A stretch of 39,927 bases of DNA from a virus. Position 1 is the stretch's first letter. Every line of letters starts with the position of its first letter. A program made the translations under genes and the position numbers. The notes beneath the pieces were generated by a model. The model saw only the letters and a list, made by a program, of their open reading frames with translations, did no database searches and was not told the DNA's origin. The stretch covers positions 1-39,927 of IMG/VR virus record IMGVR_UViG_3300037109_000145; one strand, given 5' to 3'. Below are positions 4,038 through 33,507 of the stretch, piece by piece.

Positions 4038-4050
4038 GGCGAAGAGAAAA

Positions 4051-4100
4051 GGGATTGAGGGACTGAGGGACTGAGGGACTGAGGGACTGAGGGAGAAAGG
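4051..4100 (-). repeat. TCAGTCCC tandem octamer block
   Basis: On the minus (coding) strand this is about five tandem TCAGTCCC units with a few changes, ending 14 nt before the ATG at 4037. The same octamer, in coding sense, precedes four or more plus-strand late genes. Confidence 0.9.
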
Positions 4101-4106
4101 GGCTGA

Positions 4107-15330: not shown

Positions 15331-15635
15331 GCACCGATCGCCACAACACGCAGCTCATGTGGATCATCGTGCTGCAGCTGATCGTGGCCGCGATCTGTGC
15401 CTTCGCCCTGGTCCGCCTCTCCGAACGCATGCACATCATGCTGCTGCCCGAGAAACCCGCAGCGCGGCCGGCTTCTCTACCGTCCGACCGTCAGACCGTC
15501 CGACTGTCCGACCGTGCGGATCTCTTTTCGCGGCCAACCCGCGCTCCTGGTCCGGTAGCATACGCCGCCGTGGCGGGTTTTCACCGGCCCGCCGCGGCCC
15601 ACCGGCCGCCCGTCCACCGTCCGACCGTCTACTGA
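15327..15635 (+). CDS. Small membrane protein with repeat-derived tail
   Basis: 102 aa from a GTG start overlapping the gp26-like stop. It has one membrane helix (LMWIIVLQLIVAAICAFALV, about 10-29), then a segment whose codons are ACCGTCCGACCGTC-type repeats (ASLPSDRQTVRLSDRADL), then a Pro/Ala/His-rich tail ending in a second copy of the repeat. The last half therefore looks like intergenic repeat that stayed open in frame. Its stop overlaps the next ATG. Confidence 0.5.
   Translation: MSTDRHNTQLMWIIVLQLIVAAICAFALVRLSERMHIMLLPEKPAARPASLPSDRQTVRLSDRADLFSRPTRAPGPVAYAAVAGFHRPAAAHRPPVHRPTVY
15476..15517 (+). repeat. ACCGTCCG-type tandem repeat inside a gene
   Basis: About five copies of (G)ACCGTC/CGTCCGAC, in the coding sense, inside the membrane-protein gene. 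The same family lies directly before starts at 15635 and 30298 and at 26668-26697. Confidence 0.85.
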
Positions 15636-16276
15636 TGTCGCTCGCCGAACAACTACCGGGGCCGAAGTTTGCCGAGCTGCTCGCCGAACTGCGCGCGCTC
15701 GCGGGCAAGCCGACGCTCAAGCAGATCGCCGACGTGATGGTGCGCTACGGCGTGACGTCGCCCACCGCGAAGGACGGGCGCCCCTCGCCGATGGCCGCGA
15801 AGACGCTGCGCGACGGTCCGTTCAAGCGCTACCTGGAGCGGCTCAACTCCGGCCGCGAAACGCGCGAGGCCCTCTGCGCCGCCGCCGGCGCCGGCGTCCA
15901 TCCCCTCGACGCGATCGAGGAGGCCATGGTCATCGAGCTGCAGGACCATCTCACCGGCGCGGAGAGCGGCGAGGTCGACATCAAGTTCGTGGTCGACCAG
16001 CTCACGAAGCTGCGCGCCTCGATCTCCATGCGCGAGGACTCTCACCGCAAGCAGACCGATCTGGAGCGTAAGCAGCGGGAGACCGCGTCGAAGCTCGAGC
16101 TCGCCGAAAAGCAGCTCGTCCTCCGCGACGAGCAGATCGCGAAGCTGCAGGCCGATGCGAAAGATCGCACCGAGCGCGCCGCCCAGGCGAAGGCCGCTCT
16201 CACTGGCATCAAGGCCAAGGGCGGGATCACCAAGGAAACGCTGGCCCAGATCGAGAAGGCCGCCGGTTTACTCTAA
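15635..16276 (+). CDS. Terminase small subunit, Mu gp27-like (DUF3486)
   Basis: 213 aa. Starts MSLAEQLPGPKFAELLAELR with a helical N-terminus containing LKQIADVMVRYGVTS and KTLRDGPFKRYLERL (HTH-like), then LDAIEEAMVIELQDHL and a long coiled coil (about 130-190). DUF3486 proteins in Mu-like phages bind packaging-site DNA and work with the large subunit. Here it sits directly before the large subunit, its stop overlapping that ATG (TAATG). The ATG is preceded by an ACCGTCC repeat, not a purine-rich site. Confidence 0.75.
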   Translation: MSLAEQLPGPKFAELLAELRALAGKPTLKQIADVMVRYGVTSPTAKDGRPSPMAAKTLRDGPFKRYLERLNSGRETREALCAAAGAGVHPLDAIEEAMVIELQDHLTGAESGEVDIKFVVDQLTKLRASISMREDSHRKQTDLERKQRETASKLELAEKQLVLRDEQIAKLQADAKDRTERAAQAKAALTGIKAKGGITKETLAQIEKAAGLL

Positions 16277-17712
16277 TGGCCGTCCGAACCAAAGACACTC
16301 CGTTTGCCGGCAAGGCGAAGATCATACCCGCCCGCGACACGCTGCTGCTCGGCTATCAGGCCCGCTGGATCAAGGACGACTCCCGCCTAAAGCTCATGGA
16401 GAAGGCGCGGCAGATCGGTATGTCCTGGTCGACCGCCTATCGCCTCGTTTCCAAGAAGAGTCTCACCGATGCGCGGCTTGATGCGTGGATCTCCTCGCGC
16501 GACGATCTGCAGGCGCGCCTCTTCCTGGAAGACTGCAAGAACTTCGCGGCCATCCTCCAGGCCGGCGCGCAGGATCTCGGCGAGCGCGTCATCGACGACA
16601 AGGGCCACTCGGCCTACGTGCTCCAGTTCGCGAACACTCTCCGGCTGCACTCGATGTCGTCGAATCCCGACGCGCAGGCCGGCAAGCGCGGCGATCGCGT
16701 GCTCGACGAATTCGCCCTGCATCCCGATCCGCGCAAGCTCTGGTCGATCGCGTATCCTGGCATCACCTGGGGCGGCTCGATGGAAGTCATCTCCACCCAT
16801 CGCGGCTCGGCTAATCCGTTCAACGAGCTGGTGCAGGAGATCAAACACAAGGGCAACCCGAAGGGTATCAGCCTGCACACCGTCACGCTCCAGGACGCGC
16901 TCGATGCCGGGTTCCTCTTCAAACTGCAGTGCAAGCTCCCGGCCGACGACAAGCGGATGCAGATGGACGAGGCCGACTACTTCACCTTCGTCCGCGCCGG
17001 CTGCCTGGATGAGGAGAGTTTCCTCCAGGAGTTCTGCTGCGTGCCGGCCGACGATGCGTCGGCGTTTCTCTCCTACGATCTCATCGCCAGCGGCGAATAC
17101 CACCTCGATGAAAAGTGGGAGACCGACCTCGCCGATGCCAAGGGCCAGCTCTTCCTCGGCGTGGACGTCGGCCGCGAGCACGATCTCACGGTGATCTGGG
17201 CGATCGAGCGTCTCGGCGACACCGCCTACACGCGCCGCATCGTGGAGATGAAGGGCCAGACCTTCGACGCCCAGGAACACGCGCTTTACCAGCTGCTCGC
17301 GTTGCCCCAGGTGCGTCGGTGTTGCATCGACTGCACGGGCATCGGCCGGCAGTTCTCCGAACGGGCGCAGCAGCGTTTCGGCACGTACAAGGTCGAGCCG
17401 GTCAACTTCACCGGTCCGGTGAAGGAAGAGCTGGCGTACCCGGTGCGCGCCGCCTTTGAGGATCGCACGGTTCGAGTCCCGAACCGGGCAGAGATCCGCT
17501 CGGATCTACGCGCCATCCGCAAGGAGACGACTGCCAGCGGCAATATCCGCTTCACCGCCGACCGTGGCGCAAACGGCCACTCAGACCGCTTCTGGGCGCT
17601 GGCCCTGGCACTGCACGCAGGGAAGTCCACCGGCAGTCTCACCCCTCCGGTCGCCTGGCCGCACGGAGGTGAGCGCCAAACCGCCCGTCGCGAAAGGAGC
17701 GTTGAAGCGTGA
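16276..17712 (+). CDS. Terminase large subunit, Mu gp28-like
   Basis: 478 aa. A packaging ATPase and nuclease. The ATPase half has EKARQIGMSWSTAYRL (about 42-57, the Walker A-like motif of this family), then RGDRVLDEFALHPDPRKLW (Walker B region) and EVISTHRG. The nuclease half (from about 290) has LFLGVDVGREHDLTVIW (Asp about 296), CIDCTGIGRQFSE (Asp about 352) and a late HSDRFWALALALHAG. The length is normal for gp28. It overlaps both neighbours by a few bases, so all packaging genes are coupled. Confidence 0.9.
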   Translation: MAVRTKDTPFAGKAKIIPARDTLLLGYQARWIKDDSRLKLMEKARQIGMSWSTAYRLVSKKSLTDARLDAWISSRDDLQARLFLEDCKNFAAILQAGAQDLGERVIDDKGHSAYVLQFANTLRLHSMSSNPDAQAGKRGDRVLDEFALHPDPRKLWSIAYPGITWGGSMEVISTHRGSANPFNELVQEIKHKGNPKGISLHTVTLQDALDAGFLFKLQCKLPADDKRMQMDEADYFTFVRAGCLDEESFLQEFCCVPADDASAFLSYDLIASGEYHLDEKWETDLADAKGQLFLGVDVGREHDLTVIWAIERLGDTAYTRRIVEMKGQTFDAQEHALYQLLALPQVRRCCIDCTGIGRQFSERAQQRFGTYKVEPVNFTGPVKEELAYPVRAAFEDRTVRVPNRAEIRSDLRAIRKETTASGNIRFTADRGANGHSDRFWALALALHAGKSTGSLTPPVAWPHGGERQTARRERSVEA

Positions 17713-19502
17713 ATCCGAAATCCAAAGCCCGCGTTCTGCAACCGGCCAAGCCCGCCGCCGCCACGTCCGCCCCGCGCCCGCTCACGCTCGCGCAGCGCGT
17801 CGAGGCCGCCAACCGCTGGCGCGAGACCTACAATCCGCTGCGCGGACTCACCATCCGCCGGGCCGTCGAGCTCAGCGAAGCCTATTTTCGCGGCCAGATG
17901 GCCGACCTGCAGTGGACGTATTTCTTCATCGAACAGACCGACCCCGACCTGACCGCCCTCCTGGAGTTGTCCTTCGGCCGCCTGCTCGAGATGGATTGGA
18001 ACATTCTCACGCCCGAGGATGCCGATGAGAAGCTCGCCACCGAACAGGAGGCATGGCTGCGCGAGCGGTACGACGCGATCGACAATCTTTACGACATGTT
18101 TGAACACATGGGCCTGGCGCGCTTCCGCGGGTTCGGCCATTGCGAAAAGTGGCTGGGCGCCGATGGCGAGATCTCACACCTCGAGATCGTGGACCAGTGG
18201 AATGTCGAGCGCGACGGCCTGCGCGGCGCCTGGAAGTACAACCCCACCGGCCGGACCACGAATTTCCGCGCCCTGCCGGCCGAGGCGTTGATGCCGCCCG
18301 AGCAATTTCTCTTCCGCCAGGTCGCGCGGCCGGTGAACCGATTTGCCCTTCTCAAGTTCGTCCGCTCGAATCTGAGCGAGAAGGACTGGGACGCCTTCAA
18401 CGAGATCTACGGCATCCCCGGCGGCGTAGTGATCGGGCCGCCCAACGTGCCCGAGGGCCAGGCGGCTGTTTATGAGGATGCCGGCAAGAAAGTCTCCGAA
18501 GGTGGCACCGGCTACCTGCCCAACGGCAGCGACTGGAAGGCCAACACCGCCGCGCGCGGCATGCAGCCCTTCAAGGAGCGGCTCGATCACCTCACCGAGA
18601 AGCTCGTGCTCGCCGGAACCGGCGGCAAGCTCACCATGCTTACCGACGCCACCGGCCTGGGCAGCGGCGCGAGCGATACGCACGGCGAGGTGTTCGATAT
18701 CATCGCCTCGGCCGAGGCGCGACGGATCTCCGAGATCTGCAACAAGCAGCTCTCCAAAGCCTGGCTCGAAGCGAAGTTTCCCGGCCAGCCGGCCCTCGCT
18801 TACCTGGCACTCGCGGCCAACGAGGAGACCGATACGAGCAAGATCGTCGGCGACATCAAGCTGCTCTCCGACGCCGGCTACCAGGTCAAGGTCTCCGAGG
18901 TCACGGAAAAGACCGGTTACACCGTCGAACTGAAAGCGGCGCCGCCTGCGCCGCCGGCGGTGCCGGGCTCCCCCGCCGAAGACTTGGCGAAGACGGGCTC
19001 CGAGTCCGACAATCCAAAGCCGGAAACTCAGAACCCAGAATCCGCAGTCGCGGAGCCCGATCCCAAGAAAGCCGCCATCGCCAACCGCGCCACGGTCGCC
19101 GCTGGCGTCGAGGAACGCTTCCTCGCCGCCTCCGCCGCCGAACTCACCGCCGCCGAAAAGGCCGACTTCCAGCCGCTGCTCGATCGCGCTGCGCCCCTGC
19201 ACGCCTCCATGGTCCGCCTGGCCGGCGAGACCGACGATGCTGCCTTCGCGGCCGAGCTGGCCAGGCTGCAGCCCGAACTGCTGCGCTTCCGCCAGGATCT
19301 GCCCTCTCTGGAAAAGCAGATCCTGACCACCCACCCGAACCTCGAAGCCGCCTTCAGCAACGTGGTCGGCACGGCCCTCCGATCCGGCCTGGAGGAAGCC
19401 GCGGCGGCCCGGAAACCCGATTTTGCCGCTACGGGCAAAAGTCGGCCTGGAACGCACAAAGGGGCGGGGTCGAAGCCCCAGGGCCGGGAACCGGCCTCTT
19501 AA
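17709..19502 (+). CDS. Portal protein, Mu gp29-like (DUF935)
   Basis: 597 aa from a GTG overlapping the terminase stop. DUF935 features: ELSEAYFRGQMADLQWTYFF, TALLELSFGRLLEMDWNI, HLEIVDQWNVERDG and EKDWDAFNEIYGIPGGV. The portal forms the ring DNA passes through and joins head to tail. The usual gp29-like core ends near residue 420; a Pro-rich linker (about 415-455), partly made of repeat DNA (SDNPKPETQNPES), joins a helical C-terminal extension of about 140 residues. That extension may serve scaffold or maturation contacts; its role is not clear. Confidence 0.9.
   Translation: MNPKSKARVLQPAKPAAATSAPRPLTLAQRVEAANRWRETYNPLRGLTIRRAVELSEAYFRGQMADLQWTYFFIEQTDPDLTALLELSFGRLLEMDWNILTPEDADEKLATEQEAWLRERYDAIDNLYDMFEHMGLARFRGFGHCEKWLGADGEISHLEIVDQWNVERDGLRGAWKYNPTGRTTNFRALPAEALMPPEQFLFRQVARPVNRFALLKFVRSNLSEKDWDAFNEIYGIPGGVVIGPPNVPEGQAAVYEDAGKKVSEGGTGYLPNGSDWKANTAARGMQPFKERLDHLTEKLVLAGTGGKLTMLTDATGLGSGASDTHGEVFDIIASAEARRISEICNKQLSKAWLEAKFPGQPALAYLALAANEETDTSKIVGDIKLLSDAGYQVKVSEVTEKTGYTVELKAAPPAPPAVPGSPAEDLAKTGSESDNPKPETQNPESAVAEPDPKKAAIANRATVAAGVEERFLAASAAELTAAEKADFQPLLDRAAPLHASMVRLAGETDDAAFAAELARLQPELLRFRQDLPSLEKQILTTHPNLEAAFSNVVGTALRSGLEEAAAARKPDFAATGKSRPGTHKGAGSKPQGREPAS
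19012..19045 (+). repeat. Repeat-derived linker inside the portal gene
   Basis: The codons for NPKPETQNPES read AATCCAAAGCCGGAAACTC then AGAACCCAGAATCC. The same AANCCAAAGCCGGAAACTC core lies on the minus strand just before the transposase ATG (about 9735-9760). Confidence 0.7.
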
Positions 19503-19544: not shown

Positions 19545-20588
19545 ATGACTCCCGAAACCGCAATTCTCGCCCTTTCCCATCCGGTGGCCATTATCGCCAA
19601 CCGGGACTTCAAGCTGCCCGACGACGGTTTTCTCCAGCTCTTCCCGTTCGCCGAGGTGCCGGGACCGATCGAAAACCCGGATGGAACCTCCGTGCGGGTC
19701 GTACAGATCCTCGATGCCCCGGCCGCCGACGCGTTGCTCACCGCTTTCCGCGCCGAGGCCGCCCAGCCCAATTTCGGCGGCAAGCTGGTGGACTTCGAGC
19801 ACTTCTCGCTCGATCCGAGCAAGGAATCGCGCGCCGCCATGTGGATCGAGGAGATGCAAAAGCGCGCCGATGGCGTCTATGTCCGGCCGCGCATCACCAA
19901 CAGCGGCGAGGCCGCGCTGAAGGGCGGGGACTACCGGTTCCTCTCGCCCGTGCTGGAGTTCGCCTCCCGCACGTACCGCACCGGCGAACGCGTGCGTCCG
20001 ATCGGCCTCCACAGCGCCGGCCTCACCAACGATCCGCGCGCCAAGGGCGGCAGACCAATTTCTAACCGCAACGGCCCTGCCGCGGCGGGCAACAACCAAC
20101 CCGAACCCACAATGAAAAACGTGAATAAGGAACTGGGTCTGGCGGAGGACGCGCCCGAAGCGTCGACCGTCGCCGAGGTCCAGACGATCAAGAATCGCGC
20201 CACCACCCTGCAGAGCCAGGTGACGGCGCTCACCAAGGAACGCGACACCCTCCTCACCGCCCAGATCGAGCGCGATCTCGACGACCACAAGGACGTGATC
20301 GCCGACCGCGAGGCCGTGAAGGCCCAGCTCGTCGCCAACCGCGCCGGCACGCTGGTCGTGCTCGGCGGCTTGAAAAAGCCGGCCAAGAAAGACCCGCCGG
20401 CCCGCATCACCAATCGCGACGGCGCCACGCCGCCCGAAGCCGATCCGGCCGCCTCCGCCGAGGAGACCGCCGCCGACAAGTCGCGCGCCGCCAAGATCGC
20501 GAATCGCGCCTCCGAGTTGCGCAAGACCACGCCGAGCCTCACCCGCTCGCAGGCGTTCCAGAAAGCCCAGGACGAACTCACCGCCTAG
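19545..20588 (+). CDS. Head maturation protease with scaffold, Mu I-like
   Basis: 347 aa. The N-terminal ~185 residues match the Mu I-protein type (ETAILALSHPVAIIANRDFK, VDFEHFSLDPSKESRAAMW, YRFLSPVLEF, LHSAGLTNDPRAKGG). The C-terminal part is a coiled-coil scaffold (TIKNRATTLQSQVTALTKE) with a basic/Ala-rich end. In Mu the I gene makes the protease and, from an internal start, the Z scaffold. An in-frame ATG at 20112 sits just where the scaffold would begin. The gene lies between portal and decoration/capsid genes. Confidence 0.8.
   Translation: MTPETAILALSHPVAIIANRDFKLPDDGFLQLFPFAEVPGPIENPDGTSVRVVQILDAPAADALLTAFRAEAAQPNFGGKLVDFEHFSLDPSKESRAAMWIEEMQKRADGVYVRPRITNSGEAALKGGDYRFLSPVLEFASRTYRTGERVRPIGLHSAGLTNDPRAKGGRPISNRNGPAAAGNNQPEPTMKNVNKELGLAEDAPEASTVAEVQTIKNRATTLQSQVTALTKERDTLLTAQIERDLDDHKDVIADREAVKAQLVANRAGTLVVLGGLKKPAKKDPPARITNRDGATPPEADPAASAEETAADKSRAAKIANRASELRKTTPSLTRSQAFQKAQDELTA
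20112..20588 (+). CDS. Internal-start scaffold form (Mu Z-like)
   Basis: 158 aa. ATG 20112 is in frame at Met190 of the protease gene and starts MKNVNKELGLAEDAPEAS, the N-terminus of the scaffold domain. The preceding 12 nt (CCGAACCCACA) have no clear Shine-Dalgarno site, but many genes here start without one. Known Mu biology and the domain border support it; expression is inferred. Confidence 0.45.
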   Translation: MKNVNKELGLAEDAPEASTVAEVQTIKNRATTLQSQVTALTKERDTLLTAQIERDLDDHKDVIADREAVKAQLVANRAGTLVVLGGLKKPAKKDPPARITNRDGATPPEADPAASAEETAADKSRAAKIANRASELRKTTPSLTRSQAFQKAQDELTA

Positions 20589-20606: not shown

Positions 20607-20665
20607 CCCTCAGTCCCTCAGTTCCTCAGTCCCTTCCTCCCTCACTCCCTCAGTTCCTTCCTCCC
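20607..20665 (+). repeat. CCCTCAGT repeat leader
   Basis: C/T-rich block of CCCTCAGT/CCTCACT/CCTTCCT units filling the gap between the protease stop and the ATG at 20666, running into it (CTCCCATG). Same octamer as the minus-strand block at 4051-4100. Confidence 0.9.
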
Positions 20666-21307
20666 ATGTTCAATACAAATCCCGATCAAACCAACACCCG
20701 CCCGGCCGGCCCGTTTGCGGTCCTCGCCGGCGAGGATCTCACCGGCATGCGGTCCCGCCTGGTCAAGCTCACGCACGACACCGGCATCGCCGAGGTCAAG
20801 CTCCCCACCACGATCAACGATCTCCCGCTCTACCTCCTCAACGAGGAAGGCATCGATGCCTCGCTGGTCGCCGTCGAACCCCTGGCCGAGGGCGGCCCCT
20901 CGCGCCGCGTCGTGCTCAAGGGCACCTGCAATCCCGGAGACGCGCTGGTGCTCGCCGCCATCGCCGGCGCCGATGCCGGCAAGGTCCGCGCGCTACCTGC
21001 CACGGCTGGCGTCTTCATCCAGGTTGGCACGGCCGAGGAAAAAGGCATCGACACGCAGCACGTGTTGCTTCGCCCGACCCTCAAGCTGCTCGTCGTGCCG
21101 AGCGTGGTGGCCGCCCCCGCCGCCGCCGCGCCCATCGCCGGCGTGTTCGCCGGGCTCAACTCGACCGCGGTCAATCCGACCAAGGCCGACTTCGACGCGC
21201 TCCTGGCGCAGTGCGAGATCCTCGCCCTGTCGCACATCGCCCTGCGCGACAAAGCGACGGCCATGCACACGGCGGCGGTCGCCAACGGCCAGCTCGTCAT
21301 CGCCTGA
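20666..21307 (+). CDS. Capsid decoration-like protein
   Basis: 213 aa. Small beta-rich middle (RVVLKGTCNPGDALVLAA, DAGKVRALPATAGVFIQVGT, QHVLLRPTLKLLVV) like DUF2190-type capsid cement proteins, followed by an Ala/Pro linker and a helical C-terminus (ADFDALLAQCEILALSHIAL). Decoration proteins sit on the capsid outside. Placed between protease and major capsid gene, it is a good decoration candidate. The helical tail is not part of the usual family form. Confidence 0.6.
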   Translation: MFNTNPDQTNTRPAGPFAVLAGEDLTGMRSRLVKLTHDTGIAEVKLPTTINDLPLYLLNEEGIDASLVAVEPLAEGGPSRRVVLKGTCNPGDALVLAAIAGADAGKVRALPATAGVFIQVGTAEEKGIDTQHVLLRPTLKLLVVPSVVAAPAAAAPIAGVFAGLNSTAVNPTKADFDALLAQCEILALSHIALRDKATAMHTAAVANGQLVIA

Positions 21308-21375: not shown

Positions 21376-22296
21376 ATGTCTCGCATCTCAAGTCTCTGCG
21401 CGAAATCAACCATTCGCGAATACGCTCAGGGGGCCGCCCAGGAAGGCGTCTCCAAGGTCGCGGATTTTCTCGCGCCCACCGTCGAAGTCGCCAAGGCGAC
21501 CGGTTTCTTCAAGATCTACACCGAGAAGTCCCGCTTCCGGATTCCCGATACTCGGCGCTCGATCGGCGGGGCGGCTGCCACGCTCGGCTGGGATCGCAGC
21601 GATGGCCTGTACAACGTCGAACCCCACGCGCTCGATGTGCCCGTCGACGTTGCGGAAACCGACGATGAAGACACGATGACCAACTCGCTCCAGGAGGCGG
21701 CCGATCTCGGTTCCGAGGTCGGTTCCCTCTCCCACGAGAAGGAAGTCGTCGATCTTGCCGTCACGGCCACCACGGGAGGCGTGCAAAACATCGATTTTGC
21801 CGCCGCCCTCGATCCGATCGACCAGATCGATGCGCACATCATCACGCTGATCAAGTCCGCCAACTATGGCGGCATGATGGGCGTGCGCCTGCTCCTCGGC
21901 CTCACCTGGGCTCGCCGCTTGAAGAACCATCCGCTCATCCGGGCTCGGTTCCCTGGCGCCGCAAAGGTGTCGCCCGGCATTGACGAAATCATGTCGCTGC
22001 TGCTCACCGCGCCGCAGGTGCAGATCTCCACGCTCGTCTATGACGATGCGCCGGAGGGCAAGGCAAAGGACATCAAGTTGATCCTCGACACGAAGGCGCT
22101 GCTCTTCGTGGCGCGCGACAACCCGACCCGCCGCGATCCGTCTTTCATGAAGACGTTCCGCCAGCGCGGCCGGTGGATGGCCCCGCGCAGCTACACCTCG
22201 GCGGACGGCCGCCAGGAATTCGCCGGGCTCGACTGGTCGGGCAAACCCTACGTCACGAACACCACCGGCGCCATCCAGCTCGGCATCTCAAACTGA
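21376..22296 (+). CDS. Major capsid protein
   Basis: 306 aa. HK97-fold-like content: ADFLAPTVEVAKATGFFKIY, RFRIPDTRRSIGGAAATLGW, an early segment with VPVDVAETDDEDTM and LLLGLTWARRLKNHPLIRA, and a C-terminal strand region (YVTNTTGAIQLGISN). It is not gpT-like by eye; it resembles the coat proteins of Mu-like siphophages. Its place after protease/scaffold and decoration genes, and its size, make the call. It follows a pyrimidine leader and precedes a stable hairpin (22354-22376). Confidence 0.8.
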   Translation: MSRISSLCAKSTIREYAQGAAQEGVSKVADFLAPTVEVAKATGFFKIYTEKSRFRIPDTRRSIGGAAATLGWDRSDGLYNVEPHALDVPVDVAETDDEDTMTNSLQEAADLGSEVGSLSHEKEVVDLAVTATTGGVQNIDFAAALDPIDQIDAHIITLIKSANYGGMMGVRLLLGLTWARRLKNHPLIRARFPGAAKVSPGIDEIMSLLLTAPQVQISTLVYDDAPEGKAKDIKLILDTKALLFVARDNPTRRDPSFMKTFRQRGRWMAPRSYTSADGRQEFAGLDWSGKPYVTNTTGAIQLGISN

Positions 22297-22417: not shown

Positions 22418-22453
22418 CCCCTCAGTCCCTCACTCCCTCACTCCCTTCCGCTC
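22418..22453 (+). repeat. CCCTCAGT/CCCTCACT repeat leader
   Basis: C/T-rich block running to within one codon of the ATG at 22454 (CCGCTCATG). Confidence 0.85.
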
Positions 22454-26703: not shown

Positions 26704-26780
26704 CTCCCTCAGTCCCTCAGTCCCTCAGTCCCTTTCTCCCTCAGTCCCTTTCTCCCTCAGTCCCTCATTCCCTTTTTCCT
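26704..26780 (+). repeat. CCCTCAGT leader of the 26781 gene
   Basis: The longest copy of the octamer block: seven or more CCCTCAGT or CCCTTTCT units run straight into TTTTTCCTATG. No purine-rich ribosome site is present. Confidence 0.9.
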
Positions 26781-27575: not shown

Positions 27576-29063
27576 ATGAAACTCCGATTTCTCCCTCTCC
27601 TTCTTCTGTCCCTAGTGTTCGCGCCCTGGGCGCGAACGCAGCAGGACATCGACGCGGCCGACATCAAAACCGGCACGCTTCCATCCGCCCGCCTGCCGGC
27701 CCTGACCGGCGACGTGACGACCACCGCCGGCTCTGCCGTCACCACGCTCAGCAGCGCAGCGCCGGCGCTGGTGAACGTGGCCAACAGCCACGCGGCACGC
27801 CAATGGCTATTCTTCGATGGGACCGCAGGCGCTACAGTTGCGCCGGTTCCGGCGTTTGGCACTGGAGACTTTACCGTCGTGTTCACGGTTTGTCCTACCG
27901 GATTTCCCGCTAACTATTGTGAAGCCATCTGGGGCTACGGGGGTGCTCCGATTCTCAGCTTCACAACCTCCGGCACACTTCGGGTTGGAAAATCGGGCTT
28001 AGTTCCGCACTTTATCAGCGCAGCGACAGCCGCGATCGGACGCGTGGATCAATTTGCGATCACGCGAGTGGGTGGCGTCATGTCTGCACTCAAAAACGGT
28101 CAGCTCGTAGATTCTGTCAGCGGAGACACGACGAATTACACCCAGCCTCTCTCTGTGATCAACCGGGCGGCTTTGGACCAGGAGGCATCTCTGCCAGGAA
28201 GACTGACGGTCGATGGCATCTATAATCGCGGACTTTTGTCGACCGAAGTCACTGACTATTTTGCCACGCAAAAATTGCCCAGCTGGGCGACTCCAGCGAC
28301 GGCTCCAGGGGAAAAATATGCCACTGACTTTTCAACATCCGCAGGCTGGTCGTTTGCCCCGCCCAGCGAAATATCCGGAGGGAAATTGTTTCTGGGCAAT
28401 GCCGTCTATGCGGCCGGCCCGAACGCCACCGCGATGGTTGCCGGCCAGCGGTATTTTTTCACTATTACAGTCGAGAGTCTCACGGCTGGTAATATCTGTT
28501 TTTTTGACGGGCAAAACTATATCCAATTCGCGGAAAGCCCAGGCACTTATCAGGTGGACTTCACGGCCGTTGCCGCGTCCGGCGCCATATTTCTAAAAAC
28601 CGGCGGAGGAGATGCCGTTTGTGACAATTTTTCGTTCTCACTCGCCGGCGCGCTCTTTCTTCCCGACCAATCTGAGCCCGGTCTCGGCCCGCAGTGGCGC
28701 GGCTACGGCGCCCAGATCAACCTTCCCGGCGACGGCGTGACCGGCGGCGTGACCTGGGCGCAGCCTTCAGCCCAGCGCGCTTCGTTCACGGCCATGGTCA
28801 CCGGCAGCGGCTACCTGCTCGGCCGCGACGGTCGCCACATCCCGCCCGGCTGCGTGATCGATTCGATCTATGCCAAGGGCAATGGGACGTTCTCCCTCGG
28901 CGGATCGGGTGCGGACCTCACCAGCGTGGTCAACGGCCAGGAGGCCACCGCCACGGCCGCGCCCGTCACTCTGGCGGGCCGCACGACCACCACCGGCAAA
29001 CTCTACGGCACGCTCGGCACCGCGACGAACGTGGTTCTCACCATCGACCTCAAAAAGCTATAG
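27576..29063 (+). CDS. Fibre-like protein with an unexpected signal peptide
   Basis: 495 aa. It starts with a Sec-like leader (MKLRFLPLLLLSLVFAPWAR). Then AADIKTGTLPSARLPALTGD, VTTTAGSAVTTLSS (typical of phage tail fibres), a jelly-roll/LamG-like region of about 250 residues (VVFTVCPTGFPANYCEAIWG, FAITRVGGVMSALKNGQLVD) and a C-terminal module (INLPGDGVTGGVTWAQPSAQ, HIPPGCVIDSIYAKGNGTF). The middle (about 27800-28650) is visibly A/T-richer than the rest. A signal peptide on a virion protein is odd: it may be exported, or the leader is not used. Confidence 0.6.
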   Translation: MKLRFLPLLLLSLVFAPWARTQQDIDAADIKTGTLPSARLPALTGDVTTTAGSAVTTLSSAAPALVNVANSHAARQWLFFDGTAGATVAPVPAFGTGDFTVVFTVCPTGFPANYCEAIWGYGGAPILSFTTSGTLRVGKSGLVPHFISAATAAIGRVDQFAITRVGGVMSALKNGQLVDSVSGDTTNYTQPLSVINRAALDQEASLPGRLTVDGIYNRGLLSTEVTDYFATQKLPSWATPATAPGEKYATDFSTSAGWSFAPPSEISGGKLFLGNAVYAAGPNATAMVAGQRYFFTITVESLTAGNICFFDGQNYIQFAESPGTYQVDFTAVAASGAIFLKTGGGDAVCDNFSFSLAGALFLPDQSEPGLGPQWRGYGAQINLPGDGVTGGVTWAQPSAQRASFTAMVTGSGYLLGRDGRHIPPGCVIDSIYAKGNGTFSLGGSGADLTSVVNGQEATATAAPVTLAGRTTTTGKLYGTLGTATNVVLTIDLKKL

Positions 29064-29065
29064 CC

Positions 29066-29626
29066 ATGCGCACGCTGCTATTTCTTCTTTCACTCTCACT
29101 TTCCCTTTCACTCGCGGGCGCTGCCGCGCCAGCGGAGCGCCCCGTCTGGTCGCCCCGCATCGTGGCAACCGCCGATGGCACCTTGCTGCGCGTGACACGC
29201 GTCGACGCGATCGACATTGCCTTCGACGTGGTCGCGGCCGATGGCACCGACTCCCACGGCCAGCCGCTCTATCGCACGATTGCGCCGGCGCAGGCCGTCC
29301 CGCCGCTGCCAGGCTACGATCCCGCCACGGCTACCGAGCTGCCCACCGATGCCGCGATCGCCGCGCACATCGCCAGCGAACTGGCCAAGCCGCCTCCGGA
29401 GCCGCCCGTCTATCGCGTGCTGAAGGACACCATCGTCCAGCGCATCAAGGCGGCCGGGAAACTCACCCAGCTCGCCGGCATGATCGCCGGGCTGCCCGCC
29501 GACCAGAAGTTCGAGTTCGATCAAAGCAACTGGTTTTCGAGCAACAACGCCCTGCTCGTCGGCGGCTGCACCCAGCTCGGCCTAGATCCCGCCGAGATCC
29601 TGGCTCCCGATCCTTTGGCGCCGTAA
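29066..29626 (+). CDS. Small secreted or tail-linked protein with repeat-coded signal
   Basis: 186 aa. A signal peptide, MRTLLFLLSLSLSLSLAGA, whose core LSLSLSLSL is coded by the TTTCACTCTCACTTTCCC repeat. A soluble part follows (WSPRIVATADGTLLRVTRVD, DSHGQPLYRTIAP), then a helical segment (KDTIVQRIKAAGKLTQLAGM) and a short end. It begins 2 nt after the fibre-like gene. Function unknown; the C-terminal helical part resembles small tail accessory proteins. Confidence 0.55.
   Translation: MRTLLFLLSLSLSLSLAGAAAPAERPVWSPRIVATADGTLLRVTRVDAIDIAFDVVAADGTDSHGQPLYRTIAPAQAVPPLPGYDPATATELPTDAAIAAHIASELAKPPPEPPVYRVLKDTIVQRIKAAGKLTQLAGMIAGLPADQKFEFDQSNWFSSNNALLVGGCTQLGLDPAEILAPDPLAP
29088..29112 (+). repeat. 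TTTCACTCTCAC repeat inside a signal peptide
   Basis: The repeat lies in frame and codes the hydrophobic LSLSLSLSL core. The same repeat is non-coding before the genes at 13691 and 3690. Confidence 0.85.
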
Positions 29627-29647
29627 CGCCGCGCTGTGCGCGGCTCC

Positions 29648-29686
29648 TCCTCCCTCAGTCCCTCATTCCCTCACTCCCTTCCTCCC
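29648..29686 (+). repeat. CCCTCAGT leader of the chaperone gene
   Basis: CCCTCAGTCCCTCATTCCCT then CACTCCCTTCCTCCC, directly before ATG 29687. Confidence 0.9.
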
Positions 29687-30130
29687 ATGCCTCCCACCAT
29701 TCTCCGCCCGCAAATCACCGTGAAGCTCGCTTCCGGCGAGATCGTCGTCCGCGACCTGCCCTGGCAGGACTCCCTCGAATTCCTCAAACGCCTCTCGGTC
29801 CACGCCAAAGATCTGTTCCAGGGCGCGATCACGATCACCGCGGAAGGCAAACCGCAGGTCGATCTCGCAGTGTTGCTGCCGAAGCTCTCCGATCTCGTGG
29901 TCAATACCGGCGAGCTCGCCGGATTCCTGCTCACGAAGAGCACCGGCAAAGACGAAGCCTGGCTCGCCTCTCTCGGCACGATCGAAGCGGTCGCGCTCCT
30001 GGACGCCGCCCTCGAAGTCAACCTGTCGGAGGGACTCATCGAGCTGGGAAAAAAGGTAGCCGGACGACTGGCTCGGGTCACACCGGCGGGATTGACGACG
30101 AGCGGTACGCCGGACTCGCCGACTTCCTGA
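29687..30130 (+). CDS. Tail assembly chaperone, short form (G-like)
   Basis: 147 aa. Helical and charged (EIVVRDLPWQDSLEFLKRLS, TITAEGKPQVDLAVLLPKLS, ALLDAALEVNLSEGLIELGK), in the place where lambda gpG-like chaperones lie, just before the tape measure. These bind the tape measure and help polymerise the tail. The stop is at 30128-30130. At codon Lys122-Lys123 the frame meets A AAA AAG (30049-30055), where part of the ribosomes would shift to make the long form. It is led by a CCCTCAGT repeat. Confidence 0.7.
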   Translation: MPPTILRPQITVKLASGEIVVRDLPWQDSLEFLKRLSVHAKDLFQGAITITAEGKPQVDLAVLLPKLSDLVVNTGELAGFLLTKSTGKDEAWLASLGTIEAVALLDAALEVNLSEGLIELGKKVAGRLARVTPAGLTTSGTPDSPTS

Positions 30131-30255
30131 TCGCCCAGGGCCATCCCGCGGACGCCGTCCTCTGCCAGCGCCCGTGGGGTTACACCCTGCGCCAGCTACA
30201 TCTCTTCTGCTGCGCCGCCAACGAGCGCATCGAGAAACAAGGTCCGAGGTTTTAG
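29687..30255 (+). CDS. Tail assembly chaperone, -1 frameshift long form (GT-like)
   Basis: 189 aa if the -1 shift at 30049-30055 occurs. After the shared 123 residues the T-like part reads GSRTTGSGHTGGIDDERYAG, LADFLIAQGHPADAVLCQRP and WGYTLRQLHLFCCAANERIE. The T region has no good start of its own and ends at TAG 30253-30255, 42 nt before the tape measure. Overlapping frames with a slippery site are known for lambda G-GT and many siphophage chaperones. Confidence 0.75.
30049..30055 (+). other. -1 ribosomal frameshift site A AAA AAG
   Basis: In the zero frame the codons are GGA AAA AAG; the heptamer A AAA AAG is the efficient E. coli dnaX-type slippery sequence. An SD-like GGAGGG (30028-30033) lies 15 nt upstream. 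Downstream, GCCGG (30059-30063) can pair with CCGGC (30083-30087), with GAC/GTC inside, giving a possible stimulating stem. Confidence 0.8.
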
Positions 30256-30258
30256 CCC

Positions 30259-30297
30259 ACTGTCTACCGTCCGACCGTCTACCGTCCACCGTCACCC
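30259..30297 (+). repeat. ACCGTCCG/ACCGTCT leader of the tape measure gene
   Basis: Repeated CTACCGTCCGACCGTCTACC, then GTCCACCGTCACCC, runs into ATG 30298 with no purine-rich site. Confidence 0.85.
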
Positions 30298-33200
30298 ATG
30301 GGAATGGCCAACACGCTTTCCGTCCTCCTGAACTTCAAGACCGATCTCTCCGGTCTCACGAAGTTCACGGACGCGCTCACCCAGCGGATGGCGTTGGTGA
30401 ACGATCTCAACGCCAAGCTGCAGGGCGGCGCCAACGCGGTTAACTCTGCCCTGCAGGTCGCCGCCGGCTACTTCGCGGTCGGCGCGCTGAAGGACTATGC
30501 GCGCGAGGCGATCGGCGCGCGCCAGTCGCAGGCCGCCCTGGCCCAGGCGCTCAAGCAGACGAAACAGGACTCCACCGCGTACCGCACCGAACTCGCCAGC
30601 CAGGCCACCGCCCTCCAGCAGGTCACGGGTTTGGAAGACGAACAGATCGCCGCCGTGCAGCGGCAGTTGGTTTTCGGCAAGGCCTCGCGCAAGGACATGG
30701 CCGATCTCACCCGGCTCACGCTCGATTTCGCGGCCGCCAAGGAGATCGATGTCGTCTCGGCCGCCAAGGCGGTGGGCAAGGCGCTGCAGGGCGATGGCGA
30801 CGAACTCAAGCGCTACGGTGTCGAGGTCGACCTGGCCAAGGGCAAAGTCGAGGCGCTGCGCGACGGACTCGGCAAATTCGCCGGCCAGGCCGGGCAGAAA
30901 TTCGGTTCCCTGCCTGAGGGCATGCGCGATCTGCAGATCGCTTCGGTCGAGGCCAAAAAGTCCGCTGGCGAGGCCGTGCTCGCGATCGCTGATCCGTTTT
31001 TAAAGGGCTTGGCCGATGGCATCAAGGCGATCAACGGCCAGCTCGATACGATGGCCGAGCACGGCTCGATCGTGAAGGACGTCCTGGTCGGCATGTCCAA
31101 GGCGGCCGGTTCCTTTGTTGGTTCCAATCTCAACTGGCTGCTGACGGCCGCGGCCGGGCTGCTGGCGATCAAGGCGGGCAGCTACCTGGCTGCGCAGGGG
31201 CTGGCAATATTGTCGGGTGGTTTCATGGCGCTCACCGGTACCGGACTGGTCCCCATGCTTGCCCGCTTGATCCCGATCGTGTCGCGGTTTGGCCTTCTCG
31301 CCACTATCGCTGCCGGGGGCTGGCCCGTCGCACTAGCTGCGGGTATCGCCCTTGTCGGCAGCGCACTCGCCGCCCTGGCCATCGGCTCGGTGGTTATCAA
31401 CGGCATCACTGAAGCCCAGCTCGGCCGCCTCGATCGCGAACAGAGAATCCGCGACGCGATCTACGACCAGACCAAATCGCTAAACGAGCAGATCGCGGCC
31501 ATGCGGAATCTCGCCGATGTAAGTGCGGCGAAAAAGAAGGCGGCGGCCGACCTCGAGGAAACGCGCAAGCAGATCAAAGCCCTGGAGGAAGCCCAGACGG
31601 CCTCCGCAAATCGTCCAAAGATTCCCGGCCAGCATTTTTCCTCTAAAGGCTTCAGCGAAGAAGAAGACGCCAAGCTCGAGGCGCTGCGTTTCACTGAAGG
31701 GCTGCAGGCGCGCAAAGTGCAGATGCTGGACTCGCCCGCCTTTCAACAGCGGGTGATCAACGAGAATCAGAAGAAAACCGATGCACAAACGGCAGCCGAT
31801 GCGACCAAGAATTTTGATTCCGGCGCCAACCAGAAACTGCAACAGGAGCTGGAAATCTTCGATATCGAGACGCGCATCCTGGAGGCTAAAGACAGTGGAG
31901 ACACCATCGAAGAAGCGAATCTCACCAGGCTGCGTGACCAATTGAAACTTCGGCAAGCCCTGGTCGGCGTTGCCGGCTCGGACGCGCGGACAAATACCGA
32001 AGCAGAAAAGCTCTCCCAGCAGCGCCTCGATGCCGAGCAGGCCGCCCGCGACAAGAAGCTCGTGGATGAGAAGCGCGCCTCCCAGCTCAAGGTCGACGAC
32101 GCCCGCCAGCTCGCGGACATCGATCTCAGCATCCGCGAGGCCGACGACGCCGGCAACACCGCCGAGGCCGATCGTGAACGCCGCGAGCAGCGCCGGCTGC
32201 AGCTGCGCCGCGAGCTGATCGACGCCTCGGTCGACGATGCCGCCCGGATCGCGGAGGCCAACCAGCTGATCGAGGATCAGCTAGATCTCGAAGATCGCCT
32301 GCTGCAAAAGGAACGCACCCGCCAGAATGAAGAGCGCGCCCTGGAGACCAGACTGGGCGAGATCGCCGACGCCCGCGCGCTCCTGGAGAATAACCGTTAT
32401 CTCTCCGCTGAGCAGAAACGCCAGGCCAGCCTAATTCTCCTGCGCGACGAAAACGCCGCCCTCGATGCCCGCATCGCCAAGCTGCAGGAAGAAAACAAGA
32501 CCGCCTCGCCCGAGGTCGTCAGCCAGAACGCCCAGCGGATCGAAGGCTACAAGCGCACCCGCGCCGGCAACCTCGGCACGATGGAAGCCAACGGCTCCCA
32601 AACCATCGGCCAGGGCATTCGCCAGGGGATGGATGGCCAGGGCGGTTTCATCGACGGTATCGGCACCGCGGCTCAGAACGCCGCCAACGCAGTTACCAGC
32701 ACGCTCAACTCTGCCCTGCAGGGCACGAGCGATATCCTCTACAATCTCGCCACCGGCTCCATGTCTTTCAAACAGGCTTGGGGCGCGGCCACCCTGCAGG
32801 TGGGCCAGCAATTCGCCCGCATGGCGACCGACATGGTCGCAAAAATGATCTGGAAGGCGACGGTCGAGCGCGGCCTGATCGCGATCTGCACCGCTCTGCA
32901 TATCGGCGGCGAAACCGCCAAGACAGGAGCAACTCTCACAGGCGGTGGCATCCGCCTGGGTGTGGCGATCAAGGAAGGACTCGCCGCCGTGTACTCCGGC
33001 GCCGTGGGCGCATTCAAGGCGATGGTTTCGATCCCCTACGTCGGCCCGATCCTCGGCGCGATCGCGATGGCCGCGGCTCTCGCCGGCGGCCTCGCCCTGA
33101 TCGGCAAAATCGGCCACGCCGATGGCGCTATCATTAGCGGTCCAGGTGGATCAACCGACGACCGGATCCCGGCGATGCTCTCGAACGGAGAGGCCGTAAC

Positions 33201-33507
33201 CCGAGCTTCATCTGTCAGTAAATTTGGCAGTTCATTTTTCAATCGGCTCAACGCGGGCATTCTCGATCTCTCTACATTGCCCGGCAACGTCTCCCGCGGC
33301 ATGGCCTCGCCCGCTTACGCCGCGGCTGGAGCAGGCGCCTCCGGAGGCGGGGGCGGCGGAAGTTCGCAGGCGGCCGCAAACGGCTCGGACGTGAAGGTTT
33401 TCAACGCCTTTTTCAACGACCGCCCGTCTGCTGAGCAATGGCTCAGGTCGAAGGACGGAAAGCGCAACCTCATCCAAATGCGCGGCGACCTCGGCCAGGA
33501 GACCTAG
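30298..33507 (+). CDS. Tape measure protein
   Basis: 1069 aa, the longest tail protein but one. It sets tail length; at about 0.15 nm per residue it predicts a tail near 160 nm. The N-terminus (SVLLNFKTDLSGLTKFTDAL) begins a helical domain, followed by hydrophobic segments (about 275-365: LLTAAAGLLAIKAGSYLAAQ, PVALAAGIALVGSALAALAI) and a long charged coiled coil (about 380-770). More hydrophobic helices follow (about 870-945), then a Gly/Ser-rich part. No lytic domain is evident. It is directly after the chaperone. Confidence 0.9.
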   Translation: MGMANTLSVLLNFKTDLSGLTKFTDALTQRMALVNDLNAKLQGGANAVNSALQVAAGYFAVGALKDYAREAIGARQSQAALAQALKQTKQDSTAYRTELASQATALQQVTGLEDEQIAAVQRQLVFGKASRKDMADLTRLTLDFAAAKEIDVVSAAKAVGKALQGDGDELKRYGVEVDLAKGKVEALRDGLGKFAGQAGQKFGSLPEGMRDLQIASVEAKKSAGEAVLAIADPFLKGLADGIKAINGQLDTMAEHGSIVKDVLVGMSKAAGSFVGSNLNWLLTAAAGLLAIKAGSYLAAQGLAILSGGFMALTGTGLVPMLARLIPIVSRFGLLATIAAGGWPVALAAGIALVGSALAALAIGSVVINGITEAQLGRLDREQRIRDAIYDQTKSLNEQIAAMRNLADVSAAKKKAAADLEETRKQIKALEEAQTASANRPKIPGQHFSSKGFSEEEDAKLEALRFTEGLQARKVQMLDSPAFQQRVINENQKKTDAQTAADATKNFDSGANQKLQQELEIFDIETRILEAKDSGDTIEEANLTRLRDQLKLRQALVGVAGSDARTNTEAEKLSQQRLDAEQAARDKKLVDEKRASQLKVDDARQLADIDLSIREADDAGNTAEADRERREQRRLQLRRELIDASVDDAARIAEANQLIEDQLDLEDRLLQKERTRQNEERALETRLGEIADARALLENNRYLSAEQKRQASLILLRDENAALDARIAKLQEENKTASPEVVSQNAQRIEGYKRTRAGNLGTMEANGSQTIGQGIRQGMDGQGGFIDGIGTAAQNAANAVTSTLNSALQGTSDILYNLATGSMSFKQAWGAATLQVGQQFARMATDMVAKMIWKATVERGLIAICTALHIGGETAKTGATLTGGGIRLGVAIKEGLAAVYSGAVGAFKAMVSIPYVGPILGAIAMAAALAGGLALIGKIGHADGAIISGPGGSTDDRIPAMLSNGEAVTRASSVSKFGSSFFNRLNAGILDLSTLPGNVSRGMASPAYAAAGAGASGGGGGGSSQAAANGSDVKVFNAFFNDRPSAEQWLRSKDGKRNLIQMRGDLGQET

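Follow-up and report, generated by a model that had tools for sequence, protein, structure and literature searches.

A predicted programmed -1 frameshift in the tail chaperone gene of a probably verrucomicrobial phage

The tail assembly chaperone gene of a metagenomic virus very probably undergoes programmed -1 ribosomal frameshifting of the lambda G/GT type. The viral record IMGVR_UViG_3300037109_000145 was analysed over its full 39,927 bases (the window). The frameshift reading is based on the conservation of an in-frame slippery site, on a translated -1 frame devoid of a start, on the chaperone identity of the upstream coding sequence (ORF1) and on the gene order. The majority of ribosomes would terminate at the ORF1 stop at 30130, yielding a chaperone of 147 residues. 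A minority would slip back one base on the slippery run GGGAAAAAAG, using G GGA AAA and/or A AAA AAG, then continue in the -1 frame (ORF2) to 30255, producing a fusion of 189 residues (...LGKK-GSRTTG...PRF) that carries a helical carboxyl terminus domain in place of the final 25 ORF1 residues. As in lambda, the ORF1 product would coat the tape measure protein while the extension would recruit the major tail protein (PMC5009743). The occurrence and rate of the shift, the dominant heptamer, what each product does and the stimulation by a downstream hairpin are inferred.

Long-tailed phages widely employ frameshifting in their tail chaperone genes, and the mechanism has been familiar for decades. 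The novelty of the present case is mild and lies in the lineage, in the overlapping double heptamer and in a heptamer type that changes among members of one family. It provides a well-supported G/GT frameshift in a little-studied, probably verrucomicrobial phage lineage, whose chaperone extension would be missed by ordinary gene callers. The 14-sequence family, with its change of heptamer type at a single position, permits testing of tRNA content against heptamer choice.

The chaperone gene, its surroundings and its relatives

The genes of the window follow the order typical of tailed phages, with the head genes preceding the tail genes (Table 1). The next long gene 3' of ORF1 codes for the tape measure protein, a neighborhood that is a feature of the lambda G/GT type and that an earlier note, made from the bare sequence, had rightly proposed. 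The ORF directly 5' of the chaperone gene (29066-29626; 186 residues) found no match in PHROGs or Pfam, and an Rfam scan of the whole window gave no match.

Table 1. Features of the window discussed in the text
Feature	Position	Strand	Remarks
Large terminase	16276-17712		
Portal	17709-19502		
Head protease	19545-20588		
Major head protein	21376-22296		
ORF1, predicted tail assembly chaperone (gpG-like)	29687-30130	+	147 aa, 0 frame; PHROG 1442 and predicted fold
SD-like GGAGGG, probably incidental	30028-30033	+	strong pairing energy; absent from L006, L007, L008
Slippery heptamer G GGA AAA	30046-30052	+	in frame; kept in L003, L006, L007, L008, L016, L027
Overlapping slippery heptamer A AAA AAG	30049-30055	+	in frame; kept in L006, L007, L008 only
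Putative -1 frame extension (gpT-like part)	30055-30255	+	66 aa after the shift; without ATG/GTG/TTG; conserved in 13 relatives
Possible stimulatory hairpin GCCGG..CCGGC	30059-30087	+	longer alternative 30060-30113; enriched across relatives, marginal in the window alone
Tape measure protein gene	30298-33507	+	PHROG 3547 (E 3.5e-9) and PHROG 2854 (E 2.6e-7), both tail length tape measure

The earlier note had also named the upstream gene a tail chaperone. ORF1 is similar to PHROG 1442, annotated as tail assembly chaperone (E 9.4e-7), a profile matched by 5 of 12 members of the chaperone family. Its predicted model (pLDDT 71) resembles predicted viral tail chaperones, including the 'Pre-tape measure frameshift protein G' of Xylella phage Sano (E 1.3e-4). 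Comparison to solved structures with VIA-align placed tail chaperones at ranks 1 and 3, the best matches being Bacillus subtilis YqbN (3klu, Z 6.5), a phage-island protein (Z 6.1) and the HK97 chaperone (2ob9, Z 5.6), values that the tool calls middling and that would be inconclusive taken alone. Foldseek of the model against the PDB returned nothing under E 0.001, a profile search against PDB sequences gave low-complexity helical matches only, and tblastn of ORF1 and of the fusion found no match in 50,697 phage records. The profile match and the viral fold matches identify the ORF1 product as a predicted tail assembly chaperone, which bears out the earlier assignment.

Thirteen distinct relatives were found with ORF1 searches and growing alignments, giving 14 sequences with the window. 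The closest ones, L006, L007 and L008 (66-70% identical), come from Verrucomicrobia metagenome-assembled genomes, which makes Verrucomicrobia the probable host phylum of the virus. L015-L021 come from genomes related to G002, and L026 and L027 are viral contigs. L003 and L009, identical over 6429 bases and counted once, are a viral contig (IMGVR_UViG_3300022555_003223) and a contig of a bacterial bin (CAIQCK010000026.1); this relative could be either a prophage or a phage that ended up in a bacterial bin. Scans of IMG/VR with ORF1 or ORF2 alone recovered one relative or none and a 12-row alignment two more. Matches in genomes sampled across the phylum (3 of 387) were all in the relative set already.

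Degenerate tandem repeats of 8 bases (CCCTCAGT/CCCTCACT), pyrimidine-rich on the coding strand, occupy the spacers before several genes of the window (20607-20665, 22419-22446, 26705-26773, 29646-29686 and, on the minus strand, 4048-4106). The genes behind them that were checked, at 20666, 26781 and 29687, have no SD-like motif upstream. A second type of spacer, made of ACCGTC(C/T) repeats, is found at 15479-15515 and at 30257-30293, the latter copy separating the chaperone extension from the start of the tape measure gene. L003/L009 carry a CCAACACT-type repeat (L003:3243-3308) in frame within the chaperone ORF (SPTLQHSNTPTPQTLQHS), as though the gene had been invaded by a spacer repeat.

The slippery run and the -1 frame

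The run GGGAAAAAAG holds two overlapping heptamers in frame with ORF1. The earlier note had reported A AAA AAG, and its phase is the proper one (codons AAA AAG), but the G GGA AAA that overlaps it had been overlooked. A slip at either heptamer leads to the same fusion with an LGKK-GSRTTG junction. The string AAAAAAG is not rare in the window (3 occurrences versus 1.9 expected). In-frame X XXY YYZ heptamers of any kind are rare: 9 were counted in the 5108 codon positions of seven window genes and of the upstream part of ORF1, none of them of the types used at the chaperone site. The codons CTG GGA AAA AAG are invariant in the window and in L006, L007 and L008 at 66-70% protein identity, although GGA accounts for 12% of the glycine codons and AAA for 28% of the lysine codons in the window genes.

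The conservation of the heptamer in relatives, which the earlier note had suggested checking, holds for its X XXY YYZ form in 13 of 13: each of the 14 sequences carries one in frame at the matching position near the ORF1 3' end, with variation in its type. A AAA AAG is present in three relatives, and those that have the LGK/GAGK motif without it still carry G GGA AAA (Table 1). A AAA AAC is found in L015, L018-L021 and L026, and A AAA AAA in L017. A base missing from the A run of a single long gene, through a sequencing or assembly error to which homopolymers are prone, or the decay of such a gene, would also split the frame. This explanation has a negligible probability, being refuted by 13 independent relatives that share the arrangement although their heptamers differ; ORF1 also has, in all, a Thr/Ser-rich tail (25-57 residues, conserved in style) and its own stop. 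L020 (1640-1646) and L026 (3456-3462) feature a second in-frame heptamer, G GGT TTG, about 110 nt past A AAA AAC and leading into the same -1 frame.

Polymerase slippage in the run of six A, followed by normal translation of a mixed mRNA pool, is the least improbable of the rival readings and is still very improbable. Six consecutive A are present in the window and in most relatives, and the Thermus DnaX pair arises by this mechanism in a bacterium with two lysine tRNAs (PMC5009743), a number that most of the relatives' genomes have too. What is conserved, however, is the form and phase of the heptamer rather than the length of the run, and L003, L016 and L027, in which the run has only four A (GGGAAAA), keep the two frames in the same relation. 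Runs of four A are too short for usual polymerase slippage.

The -1 frame translates into GSRTTGSGHTGG...QGPRF, 66 sense codons followed by a TAG ending at 30255, and contains no ATG, GTG or TTG after the heptamer in the window. Openness of this frame is weak evidence alone because the DNA is GC-rich and the frame is already open from 28870 (461 codons in all, 28870-30255). The substitutions after the 0-frame stop are distributed over -1 frame codon positions 1:2:3 as 7:4:17, 12:3:16 and 9:3:17 between the window and L006, L007 and L008, respectively. This dominance of third-position changes argues that the -1 frame is translated, and the excess vanishes in the overlap with ORF1, as expected if both frames are read there. 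A carboxyl terminus motif in the -1 frame, L..G.......T..QL/DLDL, is common to all relatives and the sequence often ends in GPRLF. The -1 part matches no known family and is predicted to be a small helical domain (pLDDT 70). On these comparisons the extension is a start-less coding region under protein-level selection.

Expression of ORF2 as a separate gene, either from an independent start or through re-initiation past the ORF1 stop, has a markedly lower probability than polymerase slippage. Translational coupling is common in phages, and the ORF1 TGA (30128-30130) overlaps a weak CTG start in the -1 frame (CTGA). Against this stand the lack of ATG, GTG and TTG throughout the -1 frame of ORF2, the conserved DDERYAxLxDF that precedes the CTG, and the different placement of the ORF1 end in distant relatives. 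Conservation of the slippery site would, moreover, have no reason. A separate start for the second part, named in the earlier note as the observation that would count against its reading, was not found among the 13 relatives. In L006, L007 and L008 a stop closes the -1 frame 102 nt upstream of the shift; a GTG at -96 is the sole start codon of this interval, and the ORF1/ORF2 junction has none. The central proposal of that note, a programmed -1 frameshift in the tail chaperone gene, is supported by the conserved heptamer and -1 frame and by the lack of a separate start.

Candidate stimulatory elements

Two flanking elements had been proposed as stimulators of the shift. The upstream GGAGGG is present, with an anti-SD pairing energy in the top 1.1% of the coding background, but neither its conservation nor its distance to A AAA AAG fits this role. 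The spacing is 18-19 nt, beyond the 6-17 nt at which an upstream SD stimulates frameshifting (PMC4066793). In L006-L008 the position reads GGACGG or GGATGG. An SD-like sequence at working distance is found in 4 of the 14 sequences, and in the window only relative to G GGA AAA. As the three closest relatives, and 10 of the 14 sequences in all, lack the motif, it was rejected as a conserved stimulator.

The two-part stem described downstream of the run can be drawn (GCCGG/CCGGC, 30059-30063/30083-30087; GAC/GTC, 30066-30068/30077-30079). Support from the window alone is marginal: compared to shuffled sequences the 80-nt fold is no better (z +0.24) and the 60-nt fold starting 5 nt past the heptamer is more stable (z -2.3), and relative to other places in the window the hairpin ranks in the top 5-13% (p about 0.05-0.13). 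Family-wide, hairpins of up to 45 nt located 3-10 nt past the heptamer are stronger than elsewhere in the same loci, with a combined p of about 5e-7 that treats as independent 12 sequences which are not entirely so. The mean folding z-score across relatives (60-nt windows) has its minimum around the heptamer. Stem sequences vary among relatives, and RNAalifold on two groups of relatives identified no covarying pairs. The family-wide enrichment suggests that the downstream hairpin is likely to act as a stimulator.

Heptamer choice and comparison with known systems

In E. coli, whose single tRNA-Lys(UUU) decodes AAG, A AAA AAG is highly shift-prone and is matched in slipperiness by G GGA AAG and C CCA AAG (PMC5009743, PMC4066793). 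A second lysine tRNA should lower slipping on AAG, as argued for Thermus (PMC5009743). Unlike E. coli, 5 of 6 bacterial genomes of relatives code both tRNA-Lys(UUU) and tRNA-Lys(CUU). Given the two lysine tRNAs in these genomes and the retention of G GGA AAA where A AAA AAG is missing, G GGA AAA is no weaker a candidate for the site of slippage than A AAA AAG. Judged from the alignment, it is the better-kept site, of the class used by lambda, and A AAA AAG overlaps it. A more specific but doubtful reading treats GGGAAAAAAG as a double slippery site adapted to hosts that have two lysine tRNAs, where A AAA AAG would add to the conserved G GGA AAA, and supposes that one chaperone family has switched between two classes of site, G GGA AAA and A AAA AAC, with hairpin and phase kept.

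Two of the three leading solved structures matched by the ORF1 model, the HK97 chaperone (2ob9) and YqbN (3klu), have a sequence identity to ORF1 of 13-14%. The E. coli dnaX signal combines A AAA AAG with an SD and a hairpin. The window shares with it the A AAA AAG heptamer and a hairpin that can be drawn a few bases downstream. The two differ in architecture, the shift lengthening the product in the window (66 codons in the -1 frame, past the 0-frame stop) and shortening it in dnaX. The SD-like element of the window is badly spaced and not conserved, relatives' genomes have two lysine tRNAs, and A AAA AAG is not the conserved heptamer of the chaperone family. The dnaX-type stimulation postulated in the earlier note is thus poorly supported.

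The G/GT-type frameshift is conserved among long-tailed phages (PMC5009743). The window proteins have no detectable sequence match to those of lambda. The window also differs from lambda G/GT, whose heptamer is G GGA AAG, by its overlapping second heptamer and by its possible downstream hairpin, lambda-type shifts seeming to need no stimulator (PMC5009743). The two systems share a chaperone ORF directly before the tape measure gene, a heptamer of the class G GGA AAN near the 3' end of that ORF, and a -1 ORF without a start that leads, in the window by prediction, to a longer fusion.
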